Part shown: in pieces, positions 14,267 to 40,976 of the stretch
How positions within the stretch are numbered: position 1 is the stretch's first letter
Layout of the letters: every line of letters starts with the position of its first letter
NCBI RefSeq assembly: GCF_003177035.1
Contig: NZ_CP029488.1
Coordinates: forward strand, 868,001-932,000
Direction of reading: 5' to 3'
Origin: Salinisphaera sp. LB1
GTDB taxonomy: Bacteria > Pseudomonadota > Gammaproteobacteria > Nevskiales > Salinisphaeraceae
DNA: 64,000 bases
Made by a program: the position numbers and the translations under genes
Notes under the pieces: generated by a model
What the model was told of the DNA's origin: nothing
The model's input: the letters and a program-made list of their open reading frames with translations, nothing else
The model's database searches: none

Positions 14267-14272
14267 CCTGGC

Positions 14273-16380: not shown

Positions 16381-16458
16381 TCGCATTGTCGGGCATGCGC
16401 GGCCAGCCAACGACTATGGCGACACCCATTGAACCGACATATCTTCGATCGCGCCGGG

Positions 16459-18641: not shown

Positions 18642-18765
18642 CCGATATGGCCGCCTTGCCGCCACGAGGACTCGGCTATCGGCCGCGCTCGAGCGGCGCG
18701 TGGCGCCGCGTTGAGCGCCACTCTCAGAGCGGAGATTCGCCCCTCCATTCCCGAAGGAGGCTTGC

Positions 18766-19659: not shown

Positions 19660-19672
19660 TGGACACGCCAGA

Positions 19673-23047: not shown

Positions 23048-23091
23048 GGTGGTTTTCATCCTCGGGGTCCCGCTTGGGTCGCAGACATCTG

Positions 23092-24889: not shown

Positions 24890-25381
24890 ATGGACGCCGC
24901 CGTCAAACTCGACCGCATCGATATCGATATCCTGGCCACGTTGCAGGCCAACGGGCGCATGTCGAACGTGGATCTGTCGCAGGCCGTGCATTTGTCGCCC
25001 AGCCCCTGTCTGCAGCGCGTCAAACGTTTGCAGGCGGCGAAATACATCACCTCGTATCAGGCCCGGATCGACCTGACCAAGATCGCCGACAGCGTGACCG
25101 TGTTCGCCGAGGTCACCCTGGCCGAACACCGATGCGAACATCATCGCGCTTTCGAACGGCATCTGGAGACCATCGACGGCCTGCTCGAATGCCACATGGT
25201 CAGCGGCGGCTACGATTATCTGCTGCGCTTCGTTGCCCGCAACATCGGCCATTTCCAGCAGACCATGGAAACCCTGCTCGACTGCGCCGCCGTCGGTATC
25301 GACCGCTTCGACAGCTACATCGTCATCAAGTCGCCCATCATTAAAGACCAGGTACCGATCAAGGCCCTGCTGGCCTCGTGA
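24890..25381 (+). CDS. Lrp/AsnC family transcriptional regulator
   Basis: A 163-residue regulator of the usual Lrp length. The winged helix covers residues 1-60 (LDRIDIDILATLQANGRMSN ... VHLSPSPCLQRVKRLQ). The C-terminal RAM sensor domain includes VTVFAEVTL, LLECHMVSGGYDYLLRFVAR and SYIVIKSPIIKD. The LSPSPCLQRVKRL recognition segment matches the BkdR/Lrp subgroup. It reads away from the aldehyde dehydrogenase operon and converges on the M20 hydrolase with 23 bp between. Targets are probably the flanking catabolic genes. Confidence 0.92.
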   Translation: MDAAVKLDRIDIDILATLQANGRMSNVDLSQAVHLSPSPCLQRVKRLQAAKYITSYQARIDLTKIADSVTVFAEVTLAEHRCEHHRAFERHLETIDGLLECHMVSGGYDYLLRFVARNIGHFQQTMETLLDCAAVGIDRFDSYIVIKSPIIKDQVPIKALLAS

Positions 25382-25404: not shown

Positions 25405-26706
25405 TCACGGACCCGGCGCCAGCGCGACTTCGGCCAGGGCCCGCACGGCCACCGGCAGGCACGATTCGTCGATGTCGAAAGCCGGCTGATGATGGCCGGC
25501 CGGCAGATCGGAACCGACGATCATATAGGTAGCCCATCCCCCGCGGGCCTGCACGCGCGCCATGAGCGTGGTGGCGTCCTCCGAGCCCCGCGGGCTCCGG
25601 TCGTGCGCCAGCACCTGCTCGATACCCGGCAAACCGGCGATTGTCGATGCAATCCGAGCCACCCAATCCGGGCTAGAGGCGCACTCGACAGCTCGGCCCA
25701 CACACACCACATCGGCCGTCACCCCCTGGGCGAGCGCCGCACCGTGGATGATCTGCGCGGCGCGTTCGCGCATGTAGTCGTCGATGGCGGTGGTCGCACC
25801 GCGGGTCTCGATCTCCAGCTCGGCCCGGTCGGCGATCGCATTACGCGCCGTACCGGCCCTTAAACGCCCCACATTGAGTCGCGATGCACCCGCACTGTGT
25901 GGCGCGATCGAGTGCAGGCCGGTGACCGCGAACGCGGCGGCGAGCAACGCGTTACGCCCGATCTCCGGCTGGCCGCCGGCATGTGCCGAACGACCGTCAA
26001 AACGGATGTCGAGTTTGCTCGTCGCCAGGAAACCGTCGCAGCCACACAGCACCGTGCCGCCGGGGCAGCCCAGGCCCAGATGCACGGCCACGAACCGATC
26101 CACATCGTCGACGACGCCGGCCTCGGCCAGCGCGGCGGCACCGCGCACCCCCTCTTCGGCCGGCTGGAAGATCAGCTTGACCCGGCCGACCAGCTGATCG
26201 CGCCGCTCGGCCAGCAGCGTGGCCACACCCAGGCCGATCGCGGTATGGCCATCGTGGCCGCAGGCATGCATCCAGCCGGCATGGCAGGAGGCAAAACCTT
26301 CGGCGGCCGGGCAATGAGAGGCGGCTTGCGACTCTGCGATCGGCAACGCGTCGAGATCGACCCGAATCGCCAGCGTCGGCCCCGGCCGCCCGCTGTCGAG
26401 CGTTGCCACCACACCGGTCAGCCCGCCAGCCAAACGATCCAGCCATTTCGGGCTGACACCGGATTGGCGCGCGCGCTCGAACGCCGCCGAGAGCGTGGCG
26501 TCATCCGGCAGGCCCATCCGGGCTGGCGCATCCACGACCTCGGCGCCCGCGGCCACCGTCCAACCCAGGCCATCAAGAATCGCCGCCACGGTCGCCGCGG
26601 TGCGAAATTCGCACCAGCCCGGCTCGGGATGCCGATGAAAATCCCGACGCCACGCCGTCAGCTGCGGCGTGAGCGCCTCGATGCGGGCCGCAAGGGTTGG
26701 ACTCAC
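25405..26706 (-). CDS. M20 family metallo-amidohydrolase (AbgA-like)
   Basis: A 433-residue M20D peptidase/amidohydrolase. The di-metal site is visible in VDLDALPIAE (Asp), MHACGHDGHTAIGLGVA (Cys/His cluster) and IFQPAEEGVRGAAALAEAGV (Glu pair). SAHAGGQPEIGRNALLAA marks the dimerisation-domain His. The insert DAPARMGLPDDATLSAAFER between the first strand and the Asp motif resembles AbgA, the aminobenzoyl-glutamate hydrolase subunit. It starts with GTG two bases after the stop of the upstream acetyltransferase gene. It cleaves an amide in the cytoplasm; N-acyl amino acids or acyl-glutamates are the likely substrates. Confidence 0.88.
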   Translation of the reverse strand: MSPTLAARIEALTPQLTAWRRDFHRHPEPGWCEFRTAATVAAILDGLGWTVAAGAEVVDAPARMGLPDDATLSAAFERARQSGVSPKWLDRLAGGLTGVVATLDSGRPGPTLAIRVDLDALPIAESQAASHCPAAEGFASCHAGWMHACGHDGHTAIGLGVATLLAERRDQLVGRVKLIFQPAEEGVRGAAALAEAGVVDDVDRFVAVHLGLGCPGGTVLCGCDGFLATSKLDIRFDGRSAHAGGQPEIGRNALLAAAFAVTGLHSIAPHSAGASRLNVGRLRAGTARNAIADRAELEIETRGATTAIDDYMRERAAQIIHGAALAQGVTADVVCVGRAVECASSPDWVARIASTIAGLPGIEQVLAHDRSPRGSEDATTLMARVQARGGWATYMIVGSDLPAGHHQPAFDIDESCLPVAVRALAEVALAPGP

Positions 26707-26708
26707 GA

Positions 26709-27590
26709 CTAACCAAACGCCTGGGTGGTCAGCGCGAACTGGCGAGGCGTATCGGGGGCTCCGGGGTCCGGGATCGGCAACTCACCGCGGCTCATCTGAA
26801 TAATCCGCGCCACGCAGTCGAGGCCGCGTTCGGCCAGCCATTCGGGCGCCAACCCGTCAGCCAGAATATCCATACGCACGAATCGACCGTTCGCCTGCGC
26901 CAGCAACGCATCGACCAATGCAGCCGCCTGGGCCCGGGTATGCGCGACCACCGGCCCGATCACTTCGCCCTTGCCGAATGGGCGGCGCGCGGCAAAACCG
27001 GCTACCCCACCCTGGTCATCGCGATAAACCTTGACCGCCTCAGCCGAGACCAGGGTCGTTGCGAGCACCGGACCGCGGCCGCTACCAGCATCGGCAAGCC
27101 GTTCGATCGCGTCACGATCAGCCATGGTCATATCCGCAACGCTGGGGTCACGCGACGTACTGGCGGCAGCTGCTACACCTTGATACTGGGCCACCGGATT
27201 ACGGCTCACGAAACCGAACTTTTCGTACATCGGCGCGCCCGCGTTCGTGGCCACGAGCATGGTGGGCAGATCGCCGGCCAGGGCCATCACCCGGCTCATC
27301 ATCTGCCTGCCCAGACCAAGGCCGCGATAGGCCTCGTCGATCACAATCAGCGCGATAGTCGCCAGCGCACCCTGTGCGATACATAGGCCGGTGCCAATCA
27401 GCCGACCGTCGTGCACCAGCGCGATACCCTGGCCGACGTCGAGCAGCTGGGCCCAGTCCTCGCGTCGATGCGGCCACCCGAGCGCGGCGGACAGCCGGCA
27501 GGCATCATCCAGATCGGCGACGCCAAGATCGCGCCAGACATAACGATTGTCGACGTGACGGGAATGCGAGGCCGTGTCTGAAGCGCTCAT
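26709..27590 (-). CDS. GNAT family N-acetyltransferase with C-terminal Acetyltransf_18-like domain
   Basis: A 293-residue protein from the ATG at 27590, which has a strong GGAGAAAAGG ribosome site directly upstream. An upstream extension to 27761 reads open but lacks features. Residues 10-140 form a GNAT domain with acetyl-CoA signature DEAYRGLGLGRQMMSRVMAL and ATNAGAPMYEKFGFVSR. The second half (VLATTLVSAEAVKVYRDDQG, ending GLDCVARIIQMSRGELP) resembles the domain found after many such GNATs. It forms a two-gene operon with the M20 hydrolase and is divergent from the HAD-oxidase-importer operon over 271 bp. Substrate unknown. Confidence 0.85.
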   Translation of the reverse strand: MSASDTASHSRHVDNRYVWRDLGVADLDDACRLSAALGWPHRREDWAQLLDVGQGIALVHDGRLIGTGLCIAQGALATIALIVIDEAYRGLGLGRQMMSRVMALAGDLPTMLVATNAGAPMYEKFGFVSRNPVAQYQGVAAAASTSRDPSVADMTMADRDAIERLADAGSGRGPVLATTLVSAEAVKVYRDDQGGVAGFAARRPFGKGEVIGPVVAHTRAQAAALVDALLAQANGRFVRMDILADGLAPEWLAERGLDCVARIIQMSRGELPIPDPGAPDTPRQFALTTQAFG

Positions 27591-27861: not shown

Positions 27862-28536
27862 ATGAGCGACATCATGCGCCCCCAATACATCACCTTCGAT
27901 TGCTACGGGACGCTGACCAATTTCCAGATGACCGGACTGGCGAAAGAACTGTTCGCCGATCGCATCCCCGAGCCCGAGCGCATGGCGCGCTTCTGTACCG
28001 ATTTCGGTGCGTATCGCTTCGACGAGGTGCTTGGCCCGTACCGGCCCTATGATCAGGTGGTCCGGCGCGCGCTCGAGCGCACATGCCACCGCTGGGGCCT
28101 GGCCTACGACGATGCCGAAGGCATGAAATTCTACGACGCCGTGCCGAGCTGGGGTCCGCATCCGGATGTCACCGAGGGGTTATCGCGTATCGCCGGCAAG
28201 ATTCCGCTGGTGATCTATTCCAACGCGGCCGAATCCCAGATCATGTCCAATGTCGAGAAACTCGGCGTGCCGTTCGCGCATGTATTCACCGCCGAGCGTT
28301 TCGGCGTCTACAAGCCCCGCCTGGCGGCGTTCGAAGCGATGATCGACACGCTTGGCTGCGCGCCGGAGGATCTGCTGCATGTGTCGTCGAGCTTTCGCTA
28401 CGATCAGTTCAGCGCCGCGCTGATCGGCATTCGCGACAAGGCATTCGTCAACCGCGGCCACGAGCCCTACACGCCCGGCTATGGCGCGACCGAGATTGCC
28501 GATATTCGCGGCCTGCCCGGGCTGGTCGGGCTCTAA
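27862..28536 (+). CDS. HAD hydrolase, haloacid dehalogenase type II-like
   Basis: A 224-residue HAD-fold hydrolase. The nucleophile is Asp13 in YITFDCYGTLTNFQ. Motif II is in IPLVIYSNAAES, the lysine in FGVYKPRLAAFEAM, and the last motif is HVSSSFRYDQFSAALIGIRD. The DCYGTL/SNA combination belongs to the type II 2-haloacid dehalogenase group, whose members often act on phosphates or unknown esters. It is the first gene of a rightward operon, with AAGGA upstream and 6 bp to the FAD oxidase. A real dehalogenase activity is not implied. Confidence 0.9.
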   Translation: MSDIMRPQYITFDCYGTLTNFQMTGLAKELFADRIPEPERMARFCTDFGAYRFDEVLGPYRPYDQVVRRALERTCHRWGLAYDDAEGMKFYDAVPSWGPHPDVTEGLSRIAGKIPLVIYSNAAESQIMSNVEKLGVPFAHVFTAERFGVYKPRLAAFEAMIDTLGCAPEDLLHVSSSFRYDQFSAALIGIRDKAFVNRGHEPYTPGYGATEIADIRGLPGLVGL

Positions 28537-28542
28537 TCCGCG

Positions 28543-29817
28543 ATGAACTTCACGCCCTACTGGCTGGACACTGCCCCGGCGTTCCGGAGTGCCGCCGCCG
28601 GCGACGTCGAAGGACATTACGATGTCGCCGTGATCGGCGCCGGGCTGACCGGGCTGTCTGCAGCGATCCGGGCCGCGCGCGACGGCGCCAGTGTCCTGGT
28701 GCTGGAAGCCGGCCGCGTGGCCGGCGAAGCCTCCGGGCGCAACGGCGGGCAATGCAATACGGGTTTGGCCGCCGATTACGCCGGCCTGGTCGAGCGCTTC
28801 GGTACGACCGCGGCACGCCGTCTGCATGACGCCTACACCGCGGCCGTAACCGATGTGGAACATCTGGTCTCGGATGAGGCCATCGACTGCGACTTCCGGC
28901 GCTGCGGCAAGCTCAAGCTTGCCGCCAAGCCAGCGCATTTCCGGAGCCTGGCCGCGGCGCATACGCTCATGAACGATGCGTTCGGAGCGCACACTACCCT
29001 GTTCGACGCCAGCGGGATCCGCGACGAGATCGGCAGCGACACCTTTCATGGCGGACTGCTCATGCCAGACGCCGCCCAACTCCATGTTGGCCGCTTCGGT
29101 ATCGGTCTGGCCGAGGCTGCGGCCCGCCGCGGCGCGACGATCCACGAACACACGCCGCTGACCGGAATCGACAAAAACGGTACCCGGCATCGGCTCGCCA
29201 CGCCGCGCGGCAACGCCAGCGCGGATCAGGTCATCATGGCCACCGGGGCATCGCGCCACGGCCCGCTCGGCTGGTATCGGCGCCGTATTGTACCGGTCGG
29301 CAGTTTCATCGTGGTCACCGAGGTGCTGGGGCGGGAAACGCTCGACCGGCTACTCAAGAAACGTCGCAACTACGTGACCAGCCGTCTGATCGGCCATTAC
29401 TTCCGGGCCACGACCGACGATCGACTGCTGTTTGGCGGCCGGGCCCGTTTTTCGATGTCCGGCGGTCGCGCCGACGAGAAAGCCGGCGCTATTCTCAAGC
29501 ATGGCATACGGACGACGTTCCCCGAGCTTGAGGCGGTCGGTATCGATTACTGCTGGGGCGGACTGGTGGACATGACGCGTGACCGTCTACCGCGCGCCGG
29601 CCGGCACGACGGCATCCATTACGCCATGGGCTATAGCGGCCATGGCGTACAGATGGCGGTTTATATGGGCGGCGTACTCGCCGACCGTATTGCCGGGCGC
29701 GCGGATCGCAATCCGTTTCGCGAGCTCGCCTGGCCGGCGATCCCCGGCCATTTCGGAACACCATGGTTTTTGCCGGCGGTGGGGGCCTGGTACCGGCTCA
29801 AGGATCGATTCCAATAA
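28543..29817 (+). CDS. FAD-dependent oxidoreductase (DAO family, PuuB/OrdL-like)
   Basis: A 424-residue DAO-family flavoprotein. It starts NFTPYWLDTAPAF; the FAD motif is DVAVIGAGLTGLSAAIRAAR, then VLVLEAGRVAGEASGRNGGQ. This ASGRNGGQ-type sequence is typical of gamma-glutamylputrescine oxidase and other OrdL-like enzymes. A closing flavin loop IHYAMGYSGHGVQMAVYMGG is near the C-terminus. It oxidises an amine or N-substituted amino acid. It sits between a HAD hydrolase and a peptide-type ABC importer, so its substrate is probably brought in by that importer. It is distinct from the PuuB-like gene at 21066. Confidence 0.9.
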   Translation: MNFTPYWLDTAPAFRSAAAGDVEGHYDVAVIGAGLTGLSAAIRAARDGASVLVLEAGRVAGEASGRNGGQCNTGLAADYAGLVERFGTTAARRLHDAYTAAVTDVEHLVSDEAIDCDFRRCGKLKLAAKPAHFRSLAAAHTLMNDAFGAHTTLFDASGIRDEIGSDTFHGGLLMPDAAQLHVGRFGIGLAEAAARRGATIHEHTPLTGIDKNGTRHRLATPRGNASADQVIMATGASRHGPLGWYRRRIVPVGSFIVVTEVLGRETLDRLLKKRRNYVTSRLIGHYFRATTDDRLLFGGRARFSMSGGRADEKAGAILKHGIRTTFPELEAVGIDYCWGGLVDMTRDRLPRAGRHDGIHYAMGYSGHGVQMAVYMGGVLADRIAGRADRNPFRELAWPAIPGHFGTPWFLPAVGAWYRLKDRFQ

Positions 29818-29869
29818 CGCGCCATGATCGAACGAGACCTCAGGCGCAGATTTCCAAGAGGGCAAGAGT

Positions 29870-31483
29870 ATGAATGACGACGACCAGAATCCGGTTTCGG
29901 AACAACAGCTCTACGACCGGCTGACCCGCGGCACCAGCCGCCGTGAAGCGCTCAAGACCCTGGCCGCGGCCGGCTTTTTCGCCGCCGGCGGCGCGAGTCT
30001 GGTACTCGGGCCCAAGGCGCGCGCGGCGTCCAACCAGCCCAAATACGGCGGGCATATCCGGGTGGCGCTTTCATCCAGCTCCACCAAGGACACGCTGGAC
30101 CCGGCCAAGGGCGCCACCGCGATCGACTATTGTCGCGACTTCATGTTCTACAGCGGTCTGACCGAATACGACTCGCATCTGCAGCCCCAGCCGGCGCTGG
30201 CCGAATCGTTCCAAACGCCGGACCGGGGCAAGACCTGGGTCTTCAAGCTGCAGCGCGGCGTGACGTTCCATAACGGCAAGGCGCTGGCACCGGACGATGT
30301 CGTGTTTTCGATCATGCGGCACAAAGATCCCGCGACGGGCTCGAAGATCAAGCCGCTGGCCGACCAGATCGACAAGGTGACCGCCTCCGGCGATCACGAG
30401 GTCACGGTCACGCTGACCACCCCGAACGTGGATTTTCCGGCGATCACCGCGATCTCCCACATGCTGATCGTGCCCCACGGCACCACGGATTTTTCCCAGG
30501 GCATCGGCACCGGCCCTTTTACATGCGCCGAGTTCAAGCCGGGCGTACGTTCGGTGGCGCACCGCTATGCCGGCTACTGGAAACCCGGGAAACCCTATCT
30601 GGATACGATCGAGACCGTCGGCATCGGCGACAAGTCATCGCGCATCAATGCCCTGATGTCGAACGGCGTCCAGATGATCAACGATGTCGATCCCCATGCC
30701 GCCGAGCGCATCAAGAACGCGTCGAACACCCGGCTTTCGGCCGTCAACTCGGGCAATTACAGCGATCTGATCATGCGTCTGGACATGGAGCCCGGCAAGC
30801 GCCCGGCGTTCGTCGAGGGCATGAAGTACCTGCTCGATCGCGACCGTATGAAGCAGATCATTTACAGCGGCTATGCCGATATCGCCAACGATCAACCCCT
30901 GCCCCCGACCAACCCGTACTATTTCGACGGCCTACCGCAGCGCACATACGATCCGGATCGCGCGCGATCGTTGTTCAAGAAGGCCGGTGTGACGGGCGCC
31001 AAGTTGCAGGTCGTCGCTTCGCAGGCAGCCAACGGCTCGGTAGAGATGGCGACATTTCTGCAACAGGCGGCGGACCGAGCCGGGCTCAAAATGCAGATCA
31101 AACGCGCGCCCGCCGAAGGCTATTGGTCGAACTATTGGGCCAAGCAGCCGATTACGTTCGGCAACATCAATCCGCGTCCGACGGCCAATATCCTGTTCAG
31201 CCAATTCTTTACCTCGAGCGCGCCGTGGAATGAATCGCACTGGCACGATCCGAAGTTCGATCAGCTCGTGACCGCGGCCCGCCAGGAGACGGACAAGACC
31301 AAGCGCCAGCAGATGTATGCCGACATGCAGCGCATGATCCACCAGTCCAGCGGCATCGGCATTCCGCTGTTCATCACCGACCTGACCGGCTATAGCAGCC
31401 AACTCGGCGGCATGGATCACAAGATCCCCCTCGGCGCGATGCTGGGCCATCGCTTTGCCGAATACGTCTGGTGGAAAGGATGA
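29870..31483 (+). CDS. ABC transporter substrate-binding protein, peptide/opine family 5 (OppA/DppA-like)
   Basis: A 537-residue family 5 binding protein. Residues 19-50 look like a Tat signal (TSRREALKTLAAAGFFAAGG ... ARAASNQ), so it is probably exported folded. The mature protein opens with PKYGGHIRVALS and has the family stretch VFKLQRGVTFHNGKALAPDD, VVFSIMRH, followed by the C-terminal lobe with KYLLDRDRMKQIIYSGYADI. It captures the substrate in the periplasm for the following permeases and ATPase. A good GGGCAAGAG ribosome site precedes the ATG. The ligand could be a dipeptide, opine or amine conjugate. Confidence 0.92.
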   Translation: MNDDDQNPVSEQQLYDRLTRGTSRREALKTLAAAGFFAAGGASLVLGPKARAASNQPKYGGHIRVALSSSSTKDTLDPAKGATAIDYCRDFMFYSGLTEYDSHLQPQPALAESFQTPDRGKTWVFKLQRGVTFHNGKALAPDDVVFSIMRHKDPATGSKIKPLADQIDKVTASGDHEVTVTLTTPNVDFPAITAISHMLIVPHGTTDFSQGIGTGPFTCAEFKPGVRSVAHRYAGYWKPGKPYLDTIETVGIGDKSSRINALMSNGVQMINDVDPHAAERIKNASNTRLSAVNSGNYSDLIMRLDMEPGKRPAFVEGMKYLLDRDRMKQIIYSGYADIANDQPLPPTNPYYFDGLPQRTYDPDRARSLFKKAGVTGAKLQVVASQAANGSVEMATFLQQAADRAGLKMQIKRAPAEGYWSNYWAKQPITFGNINPRPTANILFSQFFTSSAPWNESHWHDPKFDQLVTAARQETDKTKRQQMYADMQRMIHQSSGIGIPLFITDLTGYSSQLGGMDHKIPLGAMLGHRFAEYVWWKG

Positions 31484-31519
31484 GATCGATCGCGCCCGAG
31501 CACTGGCATCGGGTATGCC

Positions 31520-32476
31520 ATGCATAGTCCGGTATTGCGACTGATCGTTCGCCAGCTGGTTTCGGCCCTGGTGACCCTGCTGCTGGTCTCGTTGATCATC
31601 TTCGCGATCACGTCGCTGTTACCCGGCGATACGGCGAAGCTGATCCTCGGCCAGTTCGCAACCCCGGATCAGGTCGCCGCTCTGCGCACCAAGCTCGGTC
31701 TCGATCAGCCGGCGCCGCTGCGCTATCTACACTGGCTGGGCGGGCTTCTGACCGGCCATCTGGGTACGTCGGCGGCCAACGATATGCCGGTGGCCACACT
31801 CATCGCCCAGCGCTTGCCGGCATCGTTACTGTTAGCAGCGGTCACCACGGCCGTATCGGTGCCGATCGCACTAGCCAGCGGCATTCTGTCGGCGATGTAT
31901 CGCGGCCGATTCGCCGACACCGCACTCAATGTGGTGACACTGGCCATGGTGGCGGTGCCCGATTTTCTGGTCGCGATCCTGTTGATTCTGTTGTTCGCGG
32001 TCGAACTCGGCTGGCTTCCGGCGTTGTCGTATACCTCGACCATTCACAGCGTGGCCGATTTCTTCGAAGTCTATGCGATGCCGGTGGCCACACTGTGTGC
32101 AGTGCTGGTCGCCCAAATGGCACGCATGACGCGCATCGCACTGATCAACGAACTGGACAGCCCGTACATGGAAATGGCGCGGCTCAAGGGCGTTGGGCCG
32201 GTACGTTGTGTGCTGGTGCATGCCCTGCCCAATGCCGTGGGGCCCATCGCCAACGCGGTCGCGCTCAGCCTGTCGTATCTGATTGGCGGCATCGTGATCG
32301 TGGAGACGATCTTCAACTATCCCGGCGTGGCCAGTCTGATGGTCGATGCGGTATCGAACCAGGATCTGCCGTTGGTTCAGGCCTGCGCGATGCTGTTCTG
32401 CGCCTTTTACCTGTTGCTGATCCTGCTGGCCGAGTTGGCCGCGATCCTGTCCAACCCCAAGTTGAGGTCGAAATGA
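31520..32476 (+). CDS. ABC transporter permease, DppB-like
   Basis: A 318-residue inner-membrane permease of the DppB/OppB type. The N-terminal helix (LIVRQLVSALVTLLLVSLII) is followed by the conserved LLPGDTAKLILG...TPDQVAALRTKLGLDQP region. About five more helices follow, and the EAA-type loop is ELDSPYMEMARLKGVGPVR. The end FNYPGVASLMVDAVSNQDLP is also typical. It pairs with the next permease, whose ATG overlaps this stop codon (ATGA). Confidence 0.93.
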   Translation: MHSPVLRLIVRQLVSALVTLLLVSLIIFAITSLLPGDTAKLILGQFATPDQVAALRTKLGLDQPAPLRYLHWLGGLLTGHLGTSAANDMPVATLIAQRLPASLLLAAVTTAVSVPIALASGILSAMYRGRFADTALNVVTLAMVAVPDFLVAILLILLFAVELGWLPALSYTSTIHSVADFFEVYAMPVATLCAVLVAQMARMTRIALINELDSPYMEMARLKGVGPVRCVLVHALPNAVGPIANAVALSLSYLIGGIVIVETIFNYPGVASLMVDAVSNQDLPLVQACAMLFCAFYLLLILLAELAAILSNPKLRSK

Positions 32477-33330
32477 GCGCATCGGAAATCCAGCCGAGCG
32501 CGCCGGCTCCGCCCAGCCGCCGGGCACGCCTGGCCCAGGCCCCGGCCACGCTGTGGATCGGCCTGGTGCTATTCGGCAGCTGGATATTCATCGCGATCTT
32601 CGGCACCTGGCTGGCCCCGCACGGCATGGGCGACATGGTCTCCGGCCAAGTGTTCGCCGGGCCCAGCAGCCAGTTTCCCCTGGGGACGGATCATCTCGGG
32701 CGCGACGTATTGAGCCGCATTCTGATCGCGACACGCTACACCGTCGGCATGGCGCTGGCCGCAGCCGTGCTGTCCAGTGCGATCGGCGCCGCCTTCGGAA
32801 TGATCGTGGCCCTGTCCCCGCGGTTTGTCGATCTGGGCGTCAGTCAGTTGATGGACGCGCTGATTTCGATTCCCAGCAAGATGATGGCGCTGCTGGTCGT
32901 CGCAGTCTTCGGCTCATCGATCCCACTGCTCATCGTGGCGGCCGTGGCCAGCTACGCGCCGGGCGCTTATCGCATCGCTCGCAGTCTGGCCCTGAATCAC
33001 GCGCAGATGGAATACGTGGCCGTTGCCCGTTGTCGAGGTGAACGCCGCGCCTATATCGCCATAGTCGAGCTGTTACCCAATATCTTCGGGCCCGTGCTGA
33101 CCGACATGGGCATGCGATTCGTATTCATCGTCTTGCTGCTCAGTGCGATGAGCTTCCTCGGACTCGGCGTACAACCGCCGATGGCCGATCTCGGTTCGAT
33201 GGTGCGCGAGAACATCAGCGGCCTCAATCAGGGGGCGCTAGCGGTGATCGCCCCTGCGGTGGCGATCGGGATGCTCACGGTTGGCGCCAACCTGCTCATC
33301 GACAGCATTTCGAGTCGCCGCAATGGATGA
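32473..33330 (+). CDS. ABC transporter permease, DppC-like
   Basis: A 285-residue permease of the DppC/OppC type. The N-terminus has a cytoplasmic leader and one helix (WIGLVLFGSWIFIAIFGTWL). The family motif FPLGTDHLGRDVLSRILIAT lies at about residues 68-87. The EAA loop is near VAVARCRGERRAYIA, and the end FLGLGVQPPMADLGSMVREN is characteristic. Its end overlaps the start of the ATPase gene by 8 bases. Confidence 0.93.
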   Translation: MSASEIQPSAPAPPSRRARLAQAPATLWIGLVLFGSWIFIAIFGTWLAPHGMGDMVSGQVFAGPSSQFPLGTDHLGRDVLSRILIATRYTVGMALAAAVLSSAIGAAFGMIVALSPRFVDLGVSQLMDALISIPSKMMALLVVAVFGSSIPLLIVAAVASYAPGAYRIARSLALNHAQMEYVAVARCRGERRAYIAIVELLPNIFGPVLTDMGMRFVFIVLLLSAMSFLGLGVQPPMADLGSMVRENISGLNQGALAVIAPAVAIGMLTVGANLLIDSISSRRNG

Positions 33331-34990
33331 TGCCGCACAGACGCCCGCCCTGGGCCAGCCGCTGACCGTTTCCGGCCTGCGCGTGGTCGCCCGGCCCGAG
33401 CCGGCCGCCGACGAGATCACGATCGTGGATGATATCGGTTTTGCGCTAGCGCCCGGCGAAGTACTCGCTCTGATTGGCGAAACCGGCTCGGGCAAGAGCA
33501 CGATCGCCCTGGCGCTGATGGGTCATGCCCGATGCGGCTGCCGGATCGTCGCCGGCCGCATCGAACTCGGCGGCGTATCGATCCTGGAACAGTCGCCACG
33601 CACGCTGCGGCGTCTGCGCGGCGACCGTATCGCCTATATCGCCCAGAGCGCCGCGGCATCATTCAACCCTTCCAAGACGTTGATGTCGCAGGTCATCGAA
33701 GGCGTGGTCATTCACGGACTGATGTCTCGCCGGAAGGCGCGTGTCAAGGCACGCGCGCTGTTCCAGGAATTGGCGCTGCCCGATCCCGAGCATATCGGCG
33801 AGCGCTATCCGCACGAGGTGTCCGGCGGCCAGCTGCAACGGGTCATGGCCGCGATGGCTTTGATCAGCGACCCGGCGCTGATCATTCTCGATGAGCCCAC
33901 GACCGCGCTGGATGTGACCACTCAGATCGAAGTACTGCAGACCTTCAAGCGGGTGGTACGCGAGCGCGGCGCGACCGCGGTCTATGTCTCGCACGATCTG
34001 GCGGTGGTGGCTCAAGTGGCCGACCATGTTCTGGTGCTCAACGATGGGCGGCAGCGAGAACTCAACGACATCCATTCCATTCTCGAACACCCAGCCGACG
34101 ACTACACCCGACACCTGCTGAGCGCAGCGCAGCCACCGGATGCCACTAATCCATTGCACCGCGCATCGCAGCAGGAACTGCTGCGGGTTGATCATCTGCA
34201 CGTCGGCTACGGCCACGCGGATGCCAGCGGCACTCCGAAGCACCCCGTGCTCCTGGATATCAATTTTCGTATCGACCAGGGGCAGGCGCTGGGTGTAATC
34301 GGCGAATCAGGCTCGGGAAAATCCACCCTCGCACAGTCGATCGCCGGCCTGGTGCCGGCCTATCAGGGCGGCGTGACCTTCAATACGCGCGAGCTGCCGT
34401 CGAACCTCGCCGAGCGCAGCGAATCGCAATTTCAAGGCGTACAGATCGTTTTCCAGAGTGCGGACAACGCGCTCAATGCCGCGCACAGCGTGCGCCGCAT
34501 CCTCACCCGACCACTCAAGCGCCACTTCCATTACTCGCGGGCACAACGCGAGACCCGCGTGCGCGAATTGCTGGACCTGGTCAAACTACCGGCACGCGTG
34601 CTCGACAGCCGTCCCGGCGCCCTTTCCGGGGGTCAGAAACAGCGTGTGAATCTGGCGCGGGCGCTAGCCGCCGAACCGTCGCTGGTGATCTGCGACGAAG
34701 TCACTTCAGCGCTGGACACCGTCGTCGGTGAAGCGATTCTCGATCTGCTGGTCGAACTGCGCCGCAAACTCGGCCTGTCGTACCTGTTCATCAGCCACGA
34801 CATCTCGACGGTACGCCGGGTCTGTGACGATATTCTCGTGCTCCATCAAGGTCATCCGGTCGAACAAGGGCCCTGCCAGCAAGTCATCGACGATCCCCGG
34901 CAGCCCTATACCCGGGTGCTGATCAATTCGATTCCCCAGCTTCGCACCGACTGGCTGGATACCCATGGCAAGCTCGCCGAGCATTGCTGA
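33323..34990 (+). CDS. ABC transporter ATPase with two fused nucleotide-binding domains (DppDF type)
   Basis: A 555-residue fusion of two ATPase domains, as in GsiA-like proteins. First domain: Walker A GETGSGKST, signature VSGGQLQRV, Walker B LIILDEPTTALD, plus the YTRHLL C-terminal element of peptide importers. Second domain: Walker A GESGSGKSTL, signature LSGGQKQRV and Walker B LVICDEVTSALD, then VEQGPCQQVIDDPRQPYTRV. It energises the two permeases. The start at 33323 (MDDAAQTP) overlaps the upstream stop. It closes the HAD-oxidase-importer operon. Confidence 0.93.
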   Translation: MDDAAQTPALGQPLTVSGLRVVARPEPAADEITIVDDIGFALAPGEVLALIGETGSGKSTIALALMGHARCGCRIVAGRIELGGVSILEQSPRTLRRLRGDRIAYIAQSAAASFNPSKTLMSQVIEGVVIHGLMSRRKARVKARALFQELALPDPEHIGERYPHEVSGGQLQRVMAAMALISDPALIILDEPTTALDVTTQIEVLQTFKRVVRERGATAVYVSHDLAVVAQVADHVLVLNDGRQRELNDIHSILEHPADDYTRHLLSAAQPPDATNPLHRASQQELLRVDHLHVGYGHADASGTPKHPVLLDINFRIDQGQALGVIGESGSGKSTLAQSIAGLVPAYQGGVTFNTRELPSNLAERSESQFQGVQIVFQSADNALNAAHSVRRILTRPLKRHFHYSRAQRETRVRELLDLVKLPARVLDSRPGALSGGQKQRVNLARALAAEPSLVICDEVTSALDTVVGEAILDLLVELRRKLGLSYLFISHDISTVRRVCDDILVLHQGHPVEQGPCQQVIDDPRQPYTRVLINSIPQLRTDWLDTHGKLAEHC

Positions 34991-35010: not shown

Positions 35011-35255
35011 CAGATCGAAGACGATCTACCGGCTGAGCAATGGCGCGATGGGTTTGCTCCCCACGGCCCCCATGAGCCCGAGTGGCTGGAAGGCTCGAGC
35101 CCGTACAAGCTGATAGGTCGCGCGGCCCAGCCAGGCCGGCTCGGCCCGATGTTCGTGTTTCTGGCGAGCCCGGATCCGTCGTTCATCAGCCGCCAGACGA
35201 TTCCTGCGAATCGTCGGCATGGTCGTCAACGGCGGACCGGCCGGCCATACTGCGC
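35011..35255 (+). pseudogene. Short-chain dehydrogenase remnant (C-terminal part)
   Basis: One frame reads QIEDDLPAEQWRDGFAPHG, PYKLIGRAAQPGRLGPMFVF and LASPDPSFISRQTIPANRR. A shift near 35213 then gives MVVNGGPAGH in another frame. Joined, these match the C-terminus of short-chain dehydrogenases ('LIGRAAQPEE...FLASP.SSFISGQ.I.VNGG'). The catalytic core is absent and no start is available, so this is a decayed fragment. It lies between the ATPase gene and the AGE-family gene. Confidence 0.75.
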
Positions 35256-35285
35256 AGCAAACGATACCAACGCAGGAGTACGCTC

Positions 35286-36506
35286 ATGGCCGAGATCACA
35301 CGCTGGAGTCAGCGCGCCACCCACCGCCACTGGCTGGCGGCCGAAGGCCTGGACCTGCTCGAGTTCTATCGCGCGTCCTGCCGGGCCGGCGGCGGCTTCG
35401 GGCCGCTCGACCTCAATCGCGAGCTGGCCTCCGATACGGCGGATACATTGATCACGGCACGCATGACGCACTGCTATGCGCTCGCCACGCTCCAGGGGGT
35501 GCCCGGTGCGTCCACGCTCGCGCATCACGGCGTGGTCGCCCTTGCCGACCTGCTGCGCGACGACGCACACGGCGGCTGGTTCGCCGCCGAACCGACGCCC
35601 GGCTTCGACGATTCCAAGCAGTGCTATATCCATGTCTTCGTGGCCCTCGGCGCGGCCAGCGCCACGCGCGCGGGCATCGAGGGCGCCCGCGCCCTGCTCG
35701 ACGATGTGCTCGCCGTGCTGGAATCCCGCTTCTGGTCGGCCGGTGAACAAGCCTATGTGGAAGCATATGCACGCGACTGGACCGGGCTTGCGGACTATCG
35801 CGGCGCCAATGCCAACATGCACGCGACCGAGATGTGCCTGGAACTGGCCGACGTGCTGGATGACAACAGCTGGCGCAAGCGCGCGCTGGCGATCGTCACA
35901 CGCCTGATTCACAACGTGGCCGCCGACAACGGCTGGCGTGTGATCGAGCATTTCGATGCGAACTGGCGCATCGTGGCGGATTTCAACGCCGACAAGCCGG
36001 ACGATGATTTCAAGCCGTTCGGCGCCACCCCGGGCCACGGCTGTGAATGGGCGCGCCTGTTGCTGCATCTGGAAGCCGGCCTCGGCACCGAGGCGCCCGA
36101 GTGGCTGGCCCACGATGCCGCGCAACTGTTCGACAAGGCCATGGCCGAGGGCTGGGAGGCCGACGGCAATCCCGGCATGGTCTACACCGTCGACTGGGAC
36201 GGGGCCGCCTGCTCGCCCCGGCGGCGTCACTGGACCCACGCCGAGGCCGCCGCTGCTGCCGCCGCGCTGGGCGCGCGCACCGGTGAGGCCCGTTTCGAGA
36301 TCTGGTACCGGCGGCTCTGGGATTTCATCCGCGATGTGTATATCGACGACGATCGCGGCAGTTGGCTGCAGGAACTGGACGGCGAACTCGGCCTCGATCG
36401 CGACGATGGTCATCTCAAGTCTGATCTGTATCATGCGTATCAGGCCACGCTACTACCGCGTTTGCCGCTCGCGCCGACCCTGGCCGCGGCGGTCGATACG
36501 CTCTGA
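35286..36506 (+). CDS. AGE family sugar epimerase/isomerase
   Basis: A 406-residue (alpha/alpha)6-barrel protein of the N-acylglucosamine 2-epimerase family. It starts TRWSQRATHRHWLAAEGLDL. Barrel motifs: LITARMTHCYALATLQG, YIHVFVALGAASATRAG, YRGANANMHATEMCLELADV and FGATPGHGCEWARLLLHLEA, with the conserved His of the NMHATE and GHGCEW segments expected at the active site. Near the end, RRHWTHAEAAAAAAALGART is typical. It could interconvert mannose, fructose and glucose (YihS type), or epimerise an acyl-amino sugar. It has a GGAG ribosome site. The neighbours give no clear pathway. Confidence 0.88.
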   Translation: MAEITRWSQRATHRHWLAAEGLDLLEFYRASCRAGGGFGPLDLNRELASDTADTLITARMTHCYALATLQGVPGASTLAHHGVVALADLLRDDAHGGWFAAEPTPGFDDSKQCYIHVFVALGAASATRAGIEGARALLDDVLAVLESRFWSAGEQAYVEAYARDWTGLADYRGANANMHATEMCLELADVLDDNSWRKRALAIVTRLIHNVAADNGWRVIEHFDANWRIVADFNADKPDDDFKPFGATPGHGCEWARLLLHLEAGLGTEAPEWLAHDAAQLFDKAMAEGWEADGNPGMVYTVDWDGAACSPRRRHWTHAEAAAAAAALGARTGEARFEIWYRRLWDFIRDVYIDDDRGSWLQELDGELGLDRDDGHLKSDLYHAYQATLLPRLPLAPTLAAAVDTL

Positions 36507-37172: not shown

Positions 37173-37898
37173 CTAGTTCGAGGCCGGAGGCCAGTTCTTG
37201 AAGCTCTTGGGGCGCGGCGGGGCATAGGTACGTACCTTCGAGGTTTTCAATCCCTGCATGACCAGCCCTTCGGCCAGTTTTATGGCGGCCGACACCCCGT
37301 CGATGACCGGCACACCGGTGCGTTCGACCACCCGGCTGGTGAGCCCGGCCATGCCGCCGCAACCGAGGCAGATCGCTTCGGCGCGATCGACTTCGACTGC
37401 GTGGATTGCCTTGTTGACGATCGCCTCGATGGCAGCCTCCGGGTCGCGTTCCAGTTCGAGCACCGCCAGGCCGCTTGCATGCACGGACGCGCAGCGTTCA
37501 AACAGCCCCGCCAGCCGCAGCCGGTCCTCGATCATCGGAACTGCGCGATCGAGAGTCGTCACGATCGAATACTTGTGGCCCACGAACAGGGCGGTGGCCG
37601 CTGCCGCTTCAGTGATATCGACGACCGGTACTTCGAAAAGCTCCTGCAGTCCCTCGCGGCCGTGTTCACCGTAGCCAGCTTGCACGATGGCATCGAATTC
37701 GCCGTCGAAGGCGCGGATCGTCTCCATGACAGACACCGCGGCGACATAGCTTTCGTAGTTGCCTTCGATGGATTCGGCGCCGAAGGCCGGTGTGATGGGT
37801 ACAATTTCCGTGCCTGGATTGGCAACGCTCCGTGCCTGACGCGCGATGGCGGTGGTCATCGAGGTTGTGGTGTTCACGTTGGCAACGAGGATACGCAT
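37173..37898 (-). CDS. Asp/Glu/hydantoin racemase family, probable allantoin racemase
   Basis: A 241-residue racemase. The N-terminus MRILVANVNTTTSMTTAIA is typical of hydantoin/allantoin racemases ('I.V.NPNTT..MT..I'). Two catalytic cysteines are normally required. The second is clear in AEAICLGCGGMAGLTSRVVE. At the usual place of the first, AIVQAGYGEHG carries a Gly-Tyr in place of the common Cys, which is unusual. It is the last gene of the ureide operon, 25 bp after the permease. It would interconvert (R)- and (S)-allantoin; hydantoin racemase is the alternative. Confidence 0.83.
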   Translation of the reverse strand: MRILVANVNTTTSMTTAIARQARSVANPGTEIVPITPAFGAESIEGNYESYVAAVSVMETIRAFDGEFDAIVQAGYGEHGREGLQELFEVPVVDITEAAAATALFVGHKYSIVTTLDRAVPMIEDRLRLAGLFERCASVHASGLAVLELERDPEAAIEAIVNKAIHAVEVDRAEAICLGCGGMAGLTSRVVERTGVPVIDGVSAAIKLAEGLVMQGLKTSKVRTYAPPRPKSFKNWPPASN

Positions 37899-37923
37899 GC
37901 TAAAGACTCATCAAATGGCGGAT

Positions 37924-39423
37924 TTATTGGGACGGACGGGCAATGGATTCGCCGTCCACGTGTTCATACGCCTGATTCTTCGGAGCCAGCGCCAGATGCA
38001 GTAATGCGGCGATACCCGCGCCGATAATCCAGGAGAAATCGGATACCGAGTGGAATAACGGAATCAAGGCAATCGCGAGGGAGGCCAGAGCGGCCGGCAG
38101 CAGCGCGTAAAAAGCGCGGATGTTGAAACCGTTGCTGTAGTAGTAGGCCCCGTCGGGCGCCTCGCTGTAGAGATCGGGGATATTCAGTCGCTGACGCCGG
38201 ATAACCCAATAATCCACCATAATCAGGCCGAAGAATGGACCAAGGATGGCGCCGAGCCCGCTGAGGAAGTAGTTGATGACCAAGGGGCTGTTATAAAGAT
38301 TCCAGGGCAGGATGATGAGGCCGATGATCGCGGTCACGAGGCCAGCGCGGCGGAAGGTGAGCCAGCGCGGGAACAGATCACACAGCATGTAGTTCGGCGC
38401 CACGAAATTGGCAACCAGATTGACCGCGATGGTCAGCACGATCAGGGCGACGGACGCGGCAATTCGCCAGGCGGGGTCTGTGATCGTGCGCACGATATCG
38501 GCCGGGCTTTCGATGATATCGCCGTTGATCTGGAATTGGGCCCCGGCCAGCACCACCACAATCACGGCGAACAGCATCATATTCACCAGTATGCCGGTGA
38601 AATTGCCGATCACGACGGCGCGTTTGGAGCCGACGCAGCGGGTGAAATCGCAGACGTTGAGTGCAAAGGTGCCGTAGATCACCACCCAGAGGCAGGCACC
38701 GGCGAAGATCATCTCCCACATGGCCATGCCCGTGAGCGGCTGATTGATCGATCCGGAAATCGTAAAACCGGCGCGTGCGAAGACCCAGAGCGCCATGGCG
38801 AGCATGGTGAACAGAATGATCGGCCCGGCGAAGGCAATGTAGTGGCGGACCATGACCATGCCATAGCTTACGATGACAATCTGGATCGCCCAAAGGGCGA
38901 CGAATGAAAGCCAGCCGAGTGCGGACAGACCGAGAAACGAAACCTGCTCGAGACCGCCCAGCGAGGGTATGAAACTGGTCAGCAGCGCGTTGAGGACGTT
39001 GGCGGCCAGATAGGTCTGGATCCCAAACCAGACAATGGCGATCCCACCACGGCAGATCGCTGAAACACGTCCGCCACGGATTCCGAAGGCGATGCGGCTG
39101 ACCACGGGAAACGGCAGACCGGTCTGCTCGCCCAGGAAACCGGACAACGTGAGCAGCGCGAACAGTATGCCGGCGCCGATGGCGAAGGTCAGCAAAATCT
39201 GCCAGGCGCCCAGGCCCAGTGCGAACAAGCCGATCGCGAAGGTGTAGTTGCCGAGACTGTGTACATCGTTCGCCCACATGGTGAACACGTGGTACGCGTT
39301 CCAATGCCGACCTTCCCGTTGGACCGGCGCGATATCGTCGTTGTACAGCCGGGGGTGCGGGAAGGGCGTCCGGGCGGCTTGGTCTGGTGTCGCGACCGTT
39401 TCGTCTAGGGTTTTAAAGGTCAT
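37924..39423 (-). CDS. NCS1 family permease, probable allantoin transporter
   Basis: A 499-residue, 12-helix NCS1 nucleobase/cation symporter. The N-terminal region contains NAYHVFTMWANDVHSLGNYT, typical of allantoin/hydantoin carriers (PucI, Mhp1). Further marks: PFPVVSRIAFGIRGGRVSAI, FGIQTYLAANVLNALL, the helix with VNLVANFVAPNYMLCDLFPR and a C-terminal DYWVIRRQRLNIPDLYSEAP. Its start overlaps the stop of the upstream AllA gene (ATGA). Context points to allantoin as substrate. Confidence 0.9.
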   Translation of the reverse strand: MTFKTLDETVATPDQAARTPFPHPRLYNDDIAPVQREGRHWNAYHVFTMWANDVHSLGNYTFAIGLFALGLGAWQILLTFAIGAGILFALLTLSGFLGEQTGLPFPVVSRIAFGIRGGRVSAICRGGIAIVWFGIQTYLAANVLNALLTSFIPSLGGLEQVSFLGLSALGWLSFVALWAIQIVIVSYGMVMVRHYIAFAGPIILFTMLAMALWVFARAGFTISGSINQPLTGMAMWEMIFAGACLWVVIYGTFALNVCDFTRCVGSKRAVVIGNFTGILVNMMLFAVIVVVLAGAQFQINGDIIESPADIVRTITDPAWRIAASVALIVLTIAVNLVANFVAPNYMLCDLFPRWLTFRRAGLVTAIIGLIILPWNLYNSPLVINYFLSGLGAILGPFFGLIMVDYWVIRRQRLNIPDLYSEAPDGAYYYSNGFNIRAFYALLPAALASLAIALIPLFHSVSDFSWIIGAGIAALLHLALAPKNQAYEHVDGESIARPSQ

Positions 39424-39965
39424 AGCGGATCTGCCGGGTCGTTTTCAGGAAGGTGGACCGCAACACGCGTGCCAATTTCAACCTCGTCACAATTCCGCTC
39501 CGGGCCCGCCCGGTGCACCTCGAGAAACTCGCAAGCGTTGTCCAGCGCGATCATGGGGTGATGCCACACGCCGCGGTGGTAATTGATGCCTTGATCGCCA
39601 TTCGCCACGAACGCCTGCAACGCCTCCGGCCCGGGTGGCTCACCGCCGGGCGCGACGACAACGACATAACGTTGTCCATCGACCGGTATGAACGCCTGGC
39701 TGCCCAGTGGGTGTCGCTCCATGAGCCGGAGCCGTACCGGGATTGCTTCCGGCACGCAGGCCACACGGCTGATCGCCGGACGGCCGCCATCGGCTGTGAT
39801 ATCGACTCGTGCAAGATCCGGATAGCGCCATCCCTTGCCCTGGTTGATCGGAGTAGCCGGGCCATGCGATGCGATGACATCGCCGTAGGGGGCGAAAGCC
39901 TCGGGCGACAAGGGCATGGCGGTCAGCCTCAAGGGCGCCGTTTCATCCAGACTTTGAGCCGGCAT
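39420..39965 (-). CDS. allA: Ureidoglycolate lyase
   Basis: A 181-residue AllA-type cupin that splits ureidoglycolate into glyoxylate and urea. Family features: LRLTAMPLSPEAFAPYGDVI near the start, VRLRLMERHPLGSQAFIPVD, then RYVVVVAP and the NYHRGVWHHPMIALD stretch with the active-site His pair. Length is slightly above the E. coli enzyme. It lies 45 bp after puuE and overlaps the permease start, which places it firmly in the ureide operon. Confidence 0.93.
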   Translation of the reverse strand: MPAQSLDETAPLRLTAMPLSPEAFAPYGDVIASHGPATPINQGKGWRYPDLARVDITADGGRPAISRVACVPEAIPVRLRLMERHPLGSQAFIPVDGQRYVVVVAPGGEPPGPEALQAFVANGDQGINYHRGVWHHPMIALDNACEFLEVHRAGPERNCDEVEIGTRVAVHLPENDPADPL

Positions 39966-40010
39966 TTTGTTCTCCTCCGAAATACATGCCTGATTGTTCT
40001 TTTTTTGCTT

Positions 40011-40940: not shown

Positions 40941-40976
40941 ATCGGGATCCCCAGGATGAATACGGATGGATAACGA

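Follow-up and report, generated by a model that had tools for sequence, protein, structure and literature searches.

A Salinisphaera operon joining an azetidine-2-carboxylate-hydrolase-like HAD protein to a flavin oxidase and an Opp-type importer: a candidate pathway for azetidine-containing amines

The operon and its layout

The window analysed here is a 64,000-nucleotide stretch of Salinisphaera sp. LB1 (contig NZ_CP029488.1, positions 868,001 to 932,000), whose genome is a single contig of 4.14 Mb. At 27862-34990 of the window, six closely packed genes run in one direction on the plus strand. They encode a hydrolase of the HAD type, a flavin oxidase of the DAO type and the parts of an importer:

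27862-28536, plus strand: HAD hydrolase of the type II (haloacid dehalogenase-like) group, 224 aa, TIGR01428; proposed azetidine-ring-opening hydrolase
28543-29817, plus strand: DAO-type FAD oxidase (DAO), 424 aa, PF01266; proposed C-N cleaving secondary-amine oxidase
29870-31483, plus strand: family 5 extracellular binding protein with a twin-arginine leader, 537 aa, PF00496
31520-32476, plus strand: Opp/Dpp/Nik-type permease 1, PF00528 and PF19300; Opp2B-like, below cut-off
32473-33330, plus strand: Opp/Dpp/Nik-type permease 2, PF00528; Opp1C/Opp2C-like, below cut-off
about 33323-34990, plus strand: fused double ATPase of the importer, about 555 aa, two ABC_tran stretches and oligo_HPY (start codon, 33323, taken from the translation; family searches ran from 33326)

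The HAD and DAO genes are separated by 6 bp and the DAO and binding-protein genes by 52 bp, while the two permease genes overlap by 4 bp and the ATPase gene overlaps that of permease 2. This tight packing and the Tat-type leader of the binding protein were both recognized in an earlier sequence-only reading of the same DNA, and both are borne out: all 20 aligned binding proteins keep the twin arginines, R24 and R25. Promoter and terminator scans perform no better than chance, with 1 promoter-like site against 2.9 expected and 8 terminator-like sites against 6.8 expected.

The HAD hydrolase

The HAD protein scores 148.7 bits against TIGR01428 ("haloacid dehalogenase type II"), above the cut-off of 125.4. 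Since relatives of azetidine-2-carboxylate (AZC) hydrolase carry the same annotation, this name, which covers several reactions, does not separate dehalogenases from AZC hydrolases. When a profile built from 22 members of the HAD family is compared with all solved chains, the AZC hydrolase (3smv, 8yvw) and the related 8hp5-7 score 94-98 bits, cis-epoxysuccinate hydrolases 43-60 bits and dehalogenases 41-52 bits. The PDB title of 8hp7 names a trapped compound, (2R)-4-amino-2-hydroxybutanoic acid, which suggests that 8hp5-7 are also AZC-type hydrolases and that they yield the 2R (D) isomer.

The nucleophile D13 and the residue K151 are invariant in all 22 aligned sequences, and their equivalents are the residues mutated in 8yvw/8hp6 and 8hp7. 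This pair does not discriminate, since the Lys is also present in the dehalogenase 2yml. The motif FDCYGTL is common to the window HAD, 3smv and 8hp5, whereas 2yml has FDVNETL instead. Of the 22 family members, 7 (those of the window, Salinisphaera and Halomonadaceae) match the C-terminal GYGAT of 3smv exactly, and the others have it in altered form. The halide-binding Arg of L-DEX presumably lies near residue 41; alignment columns 41-44 read M, variable, variable and F, with no conserved Arg, in a stretch where the alignment is weak. The Asp at position +2 from the nucleophile, which completes the DxD motif of HAD phosphatases, is absent from all 22 aligned sequences, which have D-C-Y/H-G. 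Dephosphorylation, one of the two reactions offered for this protein by the sequence-only reading, is unlikely for this reason, and the HAD as a phosphatase was rejected on the same ground. The other, dehalogenation, is possible yet not favoured because both the profile and the tree described below put the HAD nearer to AZC hydrolases than to dehalogenases.

In rhizobial clusters a second HAD (HAD2; for example L109:10494-11207, where L numbers denote the loci collected) about 27-31% identical to the window HAD is found, in 37 of the 80 genome loci introduced below. In a tree of 46 proteins, 3smv, 8hp5 and their relatives form one clade (97/92), which together with rhizobial HAD2 makes one group (99/96). 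The three dehalogenase-type rows stand apart (94/88), and the window-type HADs do not group with them; they form a separate group of their own (89/98), outside the AZC-hydrolase clade. Long branches were flagged in this tree, four of six paralogue rows were dropped because of stops in the slices, and only three dehalogenase-type rows are included. The tree rules out the window HAD as an AZC-hydrolase orthologue, even though AZC hydrolase is its closest solved relative by sequence, and the protein is better described as an AZC-hydrolase-like enzyme. Its identity to AZC hydrolases and their relatives is about 24-31%, and this distance, together with the position outside the clade, means that its substrate can differ from AZC. 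Comparison of folds is uninformative about function, because it scores dehalogenases and AZC hydrolases equally: a Zobellia dehalogenase gives a Z score of 26.0, against 25.8 for 8hp7 and 25.4 for 8yvw.

In the host genome, a search with the HAD finds only one further match (26%), closest among solved structures to L-haloacid dehalogenases, and no separate AZC hydrolase. Across 17 genomes, the HAD has high-identity matches in only two (the host, and a second genome at 88%), matches of 22-33% in the rest and none in two, which marks the cluster as an accessory trait.

The oxidase and the importer

The curated families nearest to the DAO protein are the L-pipecolate oxidase AmaA and an aminophosphonate oxidoreductase, both far below cut-off (174 of 600 bits for the AmaA model). 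The nearest solved relatives of the binding protein are of the GsiB/YliB, DppA, NikZ, AgaA and NikA types. Its structure model is of moderate quality (mean pLDDT 78.4) and has neighbours that mix binders of glutathione, dipeptides, opines and nickel chelates, so the ligand cannot be read from the structure; EppA is not among the best 50 matches listed for this model. The alphaproteobacterial binding proteins in the alignment are 42-45% identical to that of the window. The fused ATPase scores above the NikD, NikE, CntD and CntF cut-offs. As a hint of metallophore import these passes were set aside, because the whole-protein scores add the two ATPase halves.

Conservation of the neighbourhood

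Around the operon, six further genes belong to the conserved set:

26709-27590, minus strand: two-domain GNAT acetyltransferase, divergent from HAD, PF18014, PF13508 and PF00583; start read from the sequence
25405-26706, minus strand: M20 amidohydrolase of the TIGR01891 type (333 bits, cut-off 153.75)
24890-25381, plus strand: Lrp/AsnC-type regulator (Lrp), PF13412 and PF01037
23092-24579, minus strand: aldehyde dehydrogenase (ALDH); proposed oxidation of released semialdehydes
22427-23095, minus strand: XRE-cupin regulator, HTH and Cupin_2
21066-22397, minus strand: second DAO-type FAD oxidase (DAO2), PF01266

The divergent pair of GNAT and AbgA-like M20 genes was correctly placed next to the operon by the sequence-only reading; the intergenic region between GNAT (start 27590) and HAD is 271 bases long. 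The conserved gene set is bigger than the operon and this pair, in that it also includes the Lrp/AsnC, ALDH, XRE-cupin and DAO2 genes.

Conservation was assessed in 80 genome loci collected solely by HAD similarity, the best 80 of 282 relatives. They comprise 54 loci from Alphaproteobacteria, 22 from Halomonadaceae, 3 from Pseudomonas and 1 from Salinisphaera, and are not independent of one another. Neighbours were counted as homologues at 35% identity or more and named by the best-scoring reference protein, with cuts at contig ends counted as misses. DAO is present in 70 loci, any DAO-type oxidase in 75, DAO2 in 29 and two DAO-type oxidases in 26. The binding protein is found in 62 loci and the complete importer in 52. 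Among the dehydrogenases, ALDH occurs in 57, a succinate-semialdehyde dehydrogenase (SSADH) in 67, one or the other of these in 74, a tartrate dehydrogenase (tartrate-DH) in 50 and GhrA in 52. A class III aminotransferase accompanies 58 loci, GNAT 68, an M20 or ArgE-type hydrolase 50 and Lrp 39. At 50% identity or more, the counts are 69 for DAO, 59 for SSADH, 56 for ALDH, 52 for the aminotransferase, 50 for tartrate-DH, 48 for GNAT and 21 for the binding protein.

In 63 of the 80 loci, the DAO match begins within 250 bases downstream of HAD and in the same orientation. In Salinisphaera sp. Q1T1-3 (L051) the whole neighbourhood is kept, with 12 of 12 genes at 72-91% identity. The order HAD, DAO, binding protein (SBP), permease 1 (PermB), permease 2 (PermC) and ATPase (ATP) on one strand is found in 17 genome loci (14 Halomonadaceae, 1 Salinisphaera, 2 Pseudomonas) and also in two of five plasmid loci, those of Acidovorax (L111) and Variovorax (L113), where tartrate-DH and SSADH follow on the same strand. 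Three Halomonas loci (L036, L038, L047) have a longer series on one strand, ALDH-DAO2-HAD-DAO-SBP-PermB-PermC-ATP-SSADH-OCD-ThrDH, in which OCD is an ornithine-cyclodeaminase homologue and ThrDH a Thr/Ser dehydratase. Among the Halomonadaceae, 17 of 22 loci have DAO2 upstream of HAD in the same orientation, and ALDH is present in 16 of 22, mostly immediately upstream of DAO2-HAD-DAO on that strand. Among the Alphaproteobacteria, 40 of the 41 loci with a binding protein have it on the strand opposite to HAD, and tartrate-DH and the class III aminotransferase are present in 50 and 52 of the 54 loci. That linkage is kept despite the changed gene order between groups points to functional clustering.

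The neighbourhood thus recurs in Salinisphaera, Halomonadaceae, Pseudomonas, Burkholderiales and Alphaproteobacteria, and the candidate scavenging pathway of the sequence-only reading withstands this check on conservation. The chemistry which that reading proposed, amide cleavage followed by amine oxidation, is not the best fit. In the version of it weighed here, an acylated amine or peptide would be imported, cleaved by the M20 enzyme and oxidised as the amine, with the HAD acting as a phosphatase. The M20 and GNAT genes do stay linked next door (50 and 68 of 80 loci), as this would predict. However, the +2 Asp of a phosphatase is missing from every aligned HAD, and an M20 or ArgE-type gene is absent from the fetched stretch in 20 of the 70 loci with DAO, while HAD and DAO are adjacent in 63 of 80; this explanation is therefore very unlikely. 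The GNAT and M20 proteins are best regarded as unexplained side functions.

Several loci carry variant gene sets. In L064, L094, L104, L105, L081, L089 and the plasmid locus L110, a window-type HAD is found with a phosphotransferase-like gene and a class III aminotransferase-like gene, and in L110 both of these match parts of the PRK06148 model; this variant looks like a kinase/phospho-lyase route. In L061, L108, L111 and L112 (Pseudomonas, Burkholderiales), a 2Fe-2S protein, an NAD(P)/FAD oxidoreductase and a DAO-type subunit, opine-oxidase-like by resemblance, adjoin HAD-DAO or lie near it. HyuA/HyuB (hydantoinase/oxoprolinase)-like genes were seen by eye inside the clusters at L029:3606-7659 and L112:5689-9946. 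In some Halomonadaceae, a copper-type P-type ATPase and a BenC-like FAD/2Fe-2S reductase lie between the aminotransferase and HAD at L033:5868-8462, as found by family scan, and at L037:3477-6041, as seen by eye; L040, L042 and L046 have gaps of similar size. A siderophore receptor adjoins the Acidovorax cluster.

Within the window, an AGE family gene resembling D-mannose isomerase (527 bits, cut-off 600) lies directly 3′ of the operon at 35082-36506. A 58% homologue is also downstream in Salinisphaera sp. Q1T1-3, and none is reported in the other 79 genome loci. Upstream of DAO2, at 13052-21049, there is by eye a set like the arginine succinyltransferase pathway. An apparent purine/ureide block at 37173-42556, also recognized by eye, contains an Asp/Glu (hydantoin) racemase, an NCS1 permease, a ureidoglycolate lyase, a polysaccharide-deacetylase-type allantoinase, a GntR regulator and a ureidoglycine aminohydrolase.

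Comparison with AZC-hydrolase loci

A plasmid collection was searched with the stretch of the AZC hydrolase of Pseudomonas sp. A2C, which gave 442 records, and 12 loci were taken from among the 25 matches listed. The HADs of these AZC-type loci are 47-62% identical to the A2C enzyme. Homologues of genes linked to the window-type HAD are found beside them: the aminotransferase in 5 (56-71% identity), SSADH in 4 (62-66%), tartrate-DH in 2 (49-53%), Lrp in 6 (53-61%) and the importer in 1 (45-53%). In Leisingera, the aminotransferase, HAD, Lrp, SSADH and tartrate-DH genes are consecutive on one strand. The importer is that of Thioclava, where it adjoins an AZC-hydrolase relative; alignment of three further family 5 binding proteins from the loci gives 22-24%. 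A DAO at 35% identity or more is found in none of the 12 AZC-type loci and in 70 of the 80 window-type loci, a contrast that is only indicative because the two sets come from different collections.

The tartrate-DH family includes D-malate dehydrogenases. On its gene content, the Leisingera-type set would read directly as a route from AZC to (2R)-4-amino-2-hydroxybutyrate, D-malate semialdehyde, D-malate and pyruvate. The additions in window-type loci, an Opp-type importer and C-N oxidases, are what would be expected if the azetidine arrived within a larger amine. This comparison of neighbourhoods is the strongest argument for an azetidine-containing substrate. In Burkholderia ambifaria (L133:8977-17496), two AZC-hydrolase-type HADs stand in tandem and are followed by Lrp; the opposite strand then carries SSADH, the aminotransferase and a D-2-hydroxyacid-dehydrogenase-like FAD/Fe-S protein.

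A simpler substrate, free AZC or another small strained-ring proline analogue, would need only import, ring opening by the HAD, detoxification by the GNAT and oxidation of the ring-opened or cyclic amino acid by the DAO. The kinship of the HAD to AZC hydrolases in profile scores would suit this, as would the similar importer of Thioclava and the fact that the curated family nearest to the DAO, L-pipecolate oxidase, acts on a cyclic imino acid. In a fungal AZC pathway, an acetyltransferase accompanies the AZC hydrolase, according to the available text of PMC8016842. However, a four-carbon amino acid is a small ligand for a binding protein of the Opp type, gabP or TRAP genes lie close to the AZC-hydrolase relatives in B. 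ambifaria and Leisingera, none of the 12 AZC-type loci has the window-type DAO, and the two DAO-type oxidases of 26 window-type loci exceed the needs of AZC. Free AZC is on balance an improbable substrate.

A different amine altogether deserves more weight. Some other secondary amine or aminopolycarboxylate (an opine, a conjugated polyamine, an ectoine-like compound or an N-carboxyalkyl amine) would be imported and oxidised, and the leaving group that the HAD removes at C2 would be a different one, for example a halide or the oxygen of an epoxide. The HAD passes the TIGR01428 cut-off, its fold is equally close to dehalogenases and AZC hydrolases, the relatives of the binding protein include opine, dipeptide, glutathione and nickel-chelate binders, and DAO2, XRE-cupin and ALDH together presumably resemble polyamine-type gene sets. 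What tells against this proposal is the separation of the HAD family from dehalogenases in both profile scores and tree, and the match of several downstream genes with some AZC-hydrolase loci, which would be unexpected for a haloacid or polyamine route. It is thus a possible explanation, though somewhat unlikely.

Proposed pathway and substrate

In nature, N-alkylated azetidine-2-carboxylate is found in nicotianamine, which occurs in plants generally, and in the mugineic acids of grasses. Deoxymugineic acid opened at C2 would become an avenic-acid-like open chain with two secondary amines. The explanation tentatively favoured here is that the operon imports and dismantles an amino-acid-like compound containing azetidine-2-carboxylate, most likely N-alkylated, with nicotianamine or a mugineic acid phytosiderophore as the likeliest candidates. 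That one of these is the specific substrate is possible but doubtful. Conserved linkage, the kinship of the HAD to AZC hydrolases and the shared downstream genes lend comparative support to an azetidine pathway; the substrate, the order of the steps and the action of the window HAD on an N-substituted ring we infer.

In the proposed pathway, the family 5 importer would carry the compound, free or metal-bound, into the cell. Asp13 of the HAD would then attack C2 of the azetidine, forming an ester with inversion and opening the ring, so that the tertiary ring nitrogen would become an open-chain secondary amine and the chelator would be weakened. The HAD, for which the sequence-only reading saw no obvious place, would thus have a natural one as the ring-opening step. 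Secondary amines of this kind are what DAO-type enzymes oxidise, and the DAO adjacent to HAD and DAO2 would split the secondary C-N bonds, two oxidations releasing C4 units. ALDH and SSADH-type enzymes would oxidise the freed semialdehydes of aspartate or malate. In organisms with the full set, the class III aminotransferase and SSADH would convert (2R)-4-amino-2-hydroxybutyrate to D-malate, which a tartrate/D-malate-type dehydrogenase (or GhrA or an FAD-FeS enzyme) would feed into central metabolism. GNAT and M20 may, as a guess, acetylate and deacetylate a toxic proline-like intermediate; the acetyltransferase of the fungal AZC pathway offers an analogy. A hydroxyaspartate branch, attractive for hydroxylated mugineic acids, was not built on: the Thr/Ser dehydratase and the ornithine-cyclodeaminase homologue are found together in 7 of 80 loci, and the dehydratase is below the cut-offs of the hydroxyaspartate models.

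Published work, as far as the available texts go, is consistent with parts of this scheme. Soil microbes readily degrade mugineic acids; the azetidine ring is suspected as the cause of the instability of deoxymugineic acid, and an analogue with a five-membered proline ring persisted longer in soil (PMC7946895). AZC is hydrolysed to 2-hydroxy-4-aminobutyrate in a Pseudomonas, and Aspergillus uses AZC as a nitrogen source (PMC8016842). The aminopolycarboxylate EDTA, whose uptake depends on the same superfamily of binding proteins, offers a precedent (PMC7312458). The copper-type ATPase genes and the siderophore receptor next to a few clusters are further hints, pointing to metals.

Besides the distance of the HAD from AZC hydrolases and the tie in fold comparison, a number of observations weigh against the azetidine pathway. 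DAO is missing in 10 of the 80 loci (L030, L033, L037, L040, L042, L046, L081, L094, L104 and L105) and the binding protein in 18, and the plasmid locus of Variovorax SRS16 (L110) has neither a window-type DAO nor the importer. In L034 a distant Opp-type importer, with a binding protein 24% identical, follows DAO in place of the window-type one, which suggests that the substrate route can be re-equipped. A kinase-like gene, which lies outside the azetidine scheme, accompanies HAD in 6 of 80 loci, and metal-related genes are beside the clusters in only a few. In rhizobia, HAD2 groups with AZC hydrolases and may be what really opens the ring, in which case the window-type HAD would have another job. 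The shared genes are all absent from four of the 12 AZC-type loci (L135, L140, L141, L144). Nor do oxidases occur solely in window-type loci, since other flavin enzymes are near two of the AZC-type ones, an unrelated FAD oxidoreductase in Roseomonas and an NADH:flavin oxidoreductase in Thioclava. Fetched stretches of Halomonadaceae have tartrate-DH in 0 of 22 and the aminotransferase in 5 of 22. Salinisphaera is no obvious plant associate. Finally, the proline-ring analogue is also biodegradable, only slowly, in the available text of PMC7946895.

The downstream half of the pathway is likewise unproven in the Salinisphaera host, because the best aminotransferase match in its genome is at 36%, no close homologue, the tartrate-DH (46%) and SSADH (48%) matches lie away from the operon, and a cyclodeaminase search of the genome was empty, a result that here proves nothing. 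At 2848332-2850885 of the host contig, a frame resembling a class III aminotransferase, interrupted by a single internal TGA, comes after the tartrate-DH homologue (46%).

Significance for phytosiderophore degradation

Cereal iron carriers are destroyed by soil microbes, and a chelator fertiliser has been redesigned around that loss, as described in the available text of PMC7946895. In a 2021 study, Pseudomonas consumed phytosiderophores, and the available text proposes only candidate genes, namely a porin, a transporter and a monooxygenase/oxidoreductase; it states that the sole earlier report of degrading isolates gave no genetic information (PMC7786132). Apart from that study, no bacterial genes for the breakdown of nicotianamine or mugineic acid are named among the titles and opening lines of abstracts listed in searches of the open literature, with subscription journals mostly outside.

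In its most far-reaching form, the proposal is that the operon serves the complete breakdown of nicotianamine-type chelators: a new HAD clade would open the ring of the intact chelator, disarming it and freeing the metal, paired flavin oxidases would unzip the chain and the C4 unit would leave via D-malate, and the system, shuffled among rhizobia, pseudomonads, burkholderias and halophiles, would be the genetic basis of phytosiderophore degradation in soil. This form is speculative and rather unlikely. If it were true, the question of phytosiderophore degradation would become one of simple gene-deletion and enzyme tests, and metagenomes could be screened for the trait. If the substrate differs, an uncharacterised HAD clade is still placed beside ring-opening hydrolases and its "haloacid dehalogenase" label is questioned.

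Comparison with known systems

The nickel and staphylopine importers (Nik/Cnt) and the opine importers belong to the same superfamily as the importer of the window, whose ATPase passes the NikD/NikE and CntD/CntF cut-offs (weak evidence, since the scores of two ATPase halves are summed), whereas its binding protein and permeases are far below the Nik and Cnt cut-offs. The Puu (gamma-glutamylputrescine) and AmaA (L-pipecolate) pathways share with the window a DAO-type FAD oxidase and an aldehyde dehydrogenase. The XRE-cupin regulator of the window is presumably also as in Puu. Unlike in these pathways, the HAD is central in the window, and the DAO is far below the AmaA cut-off. No glutamine synthetase of the PuuA type is in the family listings of the twelve window genes, the part of the genome searched for it.

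The catabolism of ethylenediaminetetraacetate (EDTA) in Chelativorans (EppABCD, EmoA/EmoB, IdaA) combines a NikA/DppA/OppA-like importer with a C-N cleaving oxidase, as the window does; in the available text of PMC7312458, EDTA is taken up via a binding protein of that kind and the oxidase IdaA acts later in the pathway. With an importer and a DAO-type oxidase in one operon, the window has the importer-plus-oxidase combination of EDTA-type catabolism. It differs in that EDTA has no azetidine ring and the described EDTA pathway no HAD, and family scans find no FMNH2-dependent monooxygenase of the EmoA family among the twelve window genes.

The closest enzymes are the AZC hydrolase of Pseudomonas sp. 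A2C (3smv, 8ywo, 8yvw) and fungal AzhA, which resemble the window HAD in their type II-like fold, the Asp and Lys pair and the FDCYGTL motif. The A2C enzyme is described as periplasmic in the available text of PMC8016842, whereas the window HAD has by eye no visible leader. The window HAD also differs in its distance (about 24-31% identity) and its own clade, and in its link with DAO (0 of 12 AZC-type loci) and with a family 5 importer (1 of 12). Some relatives of AZC hydrolase are, like the window-type HADs, linked to the aminotransferase, SSADH, tartrate-DH and Lrp genes, and the window system may work like AZC hydrolase, with an importer and flavin oxidases added.

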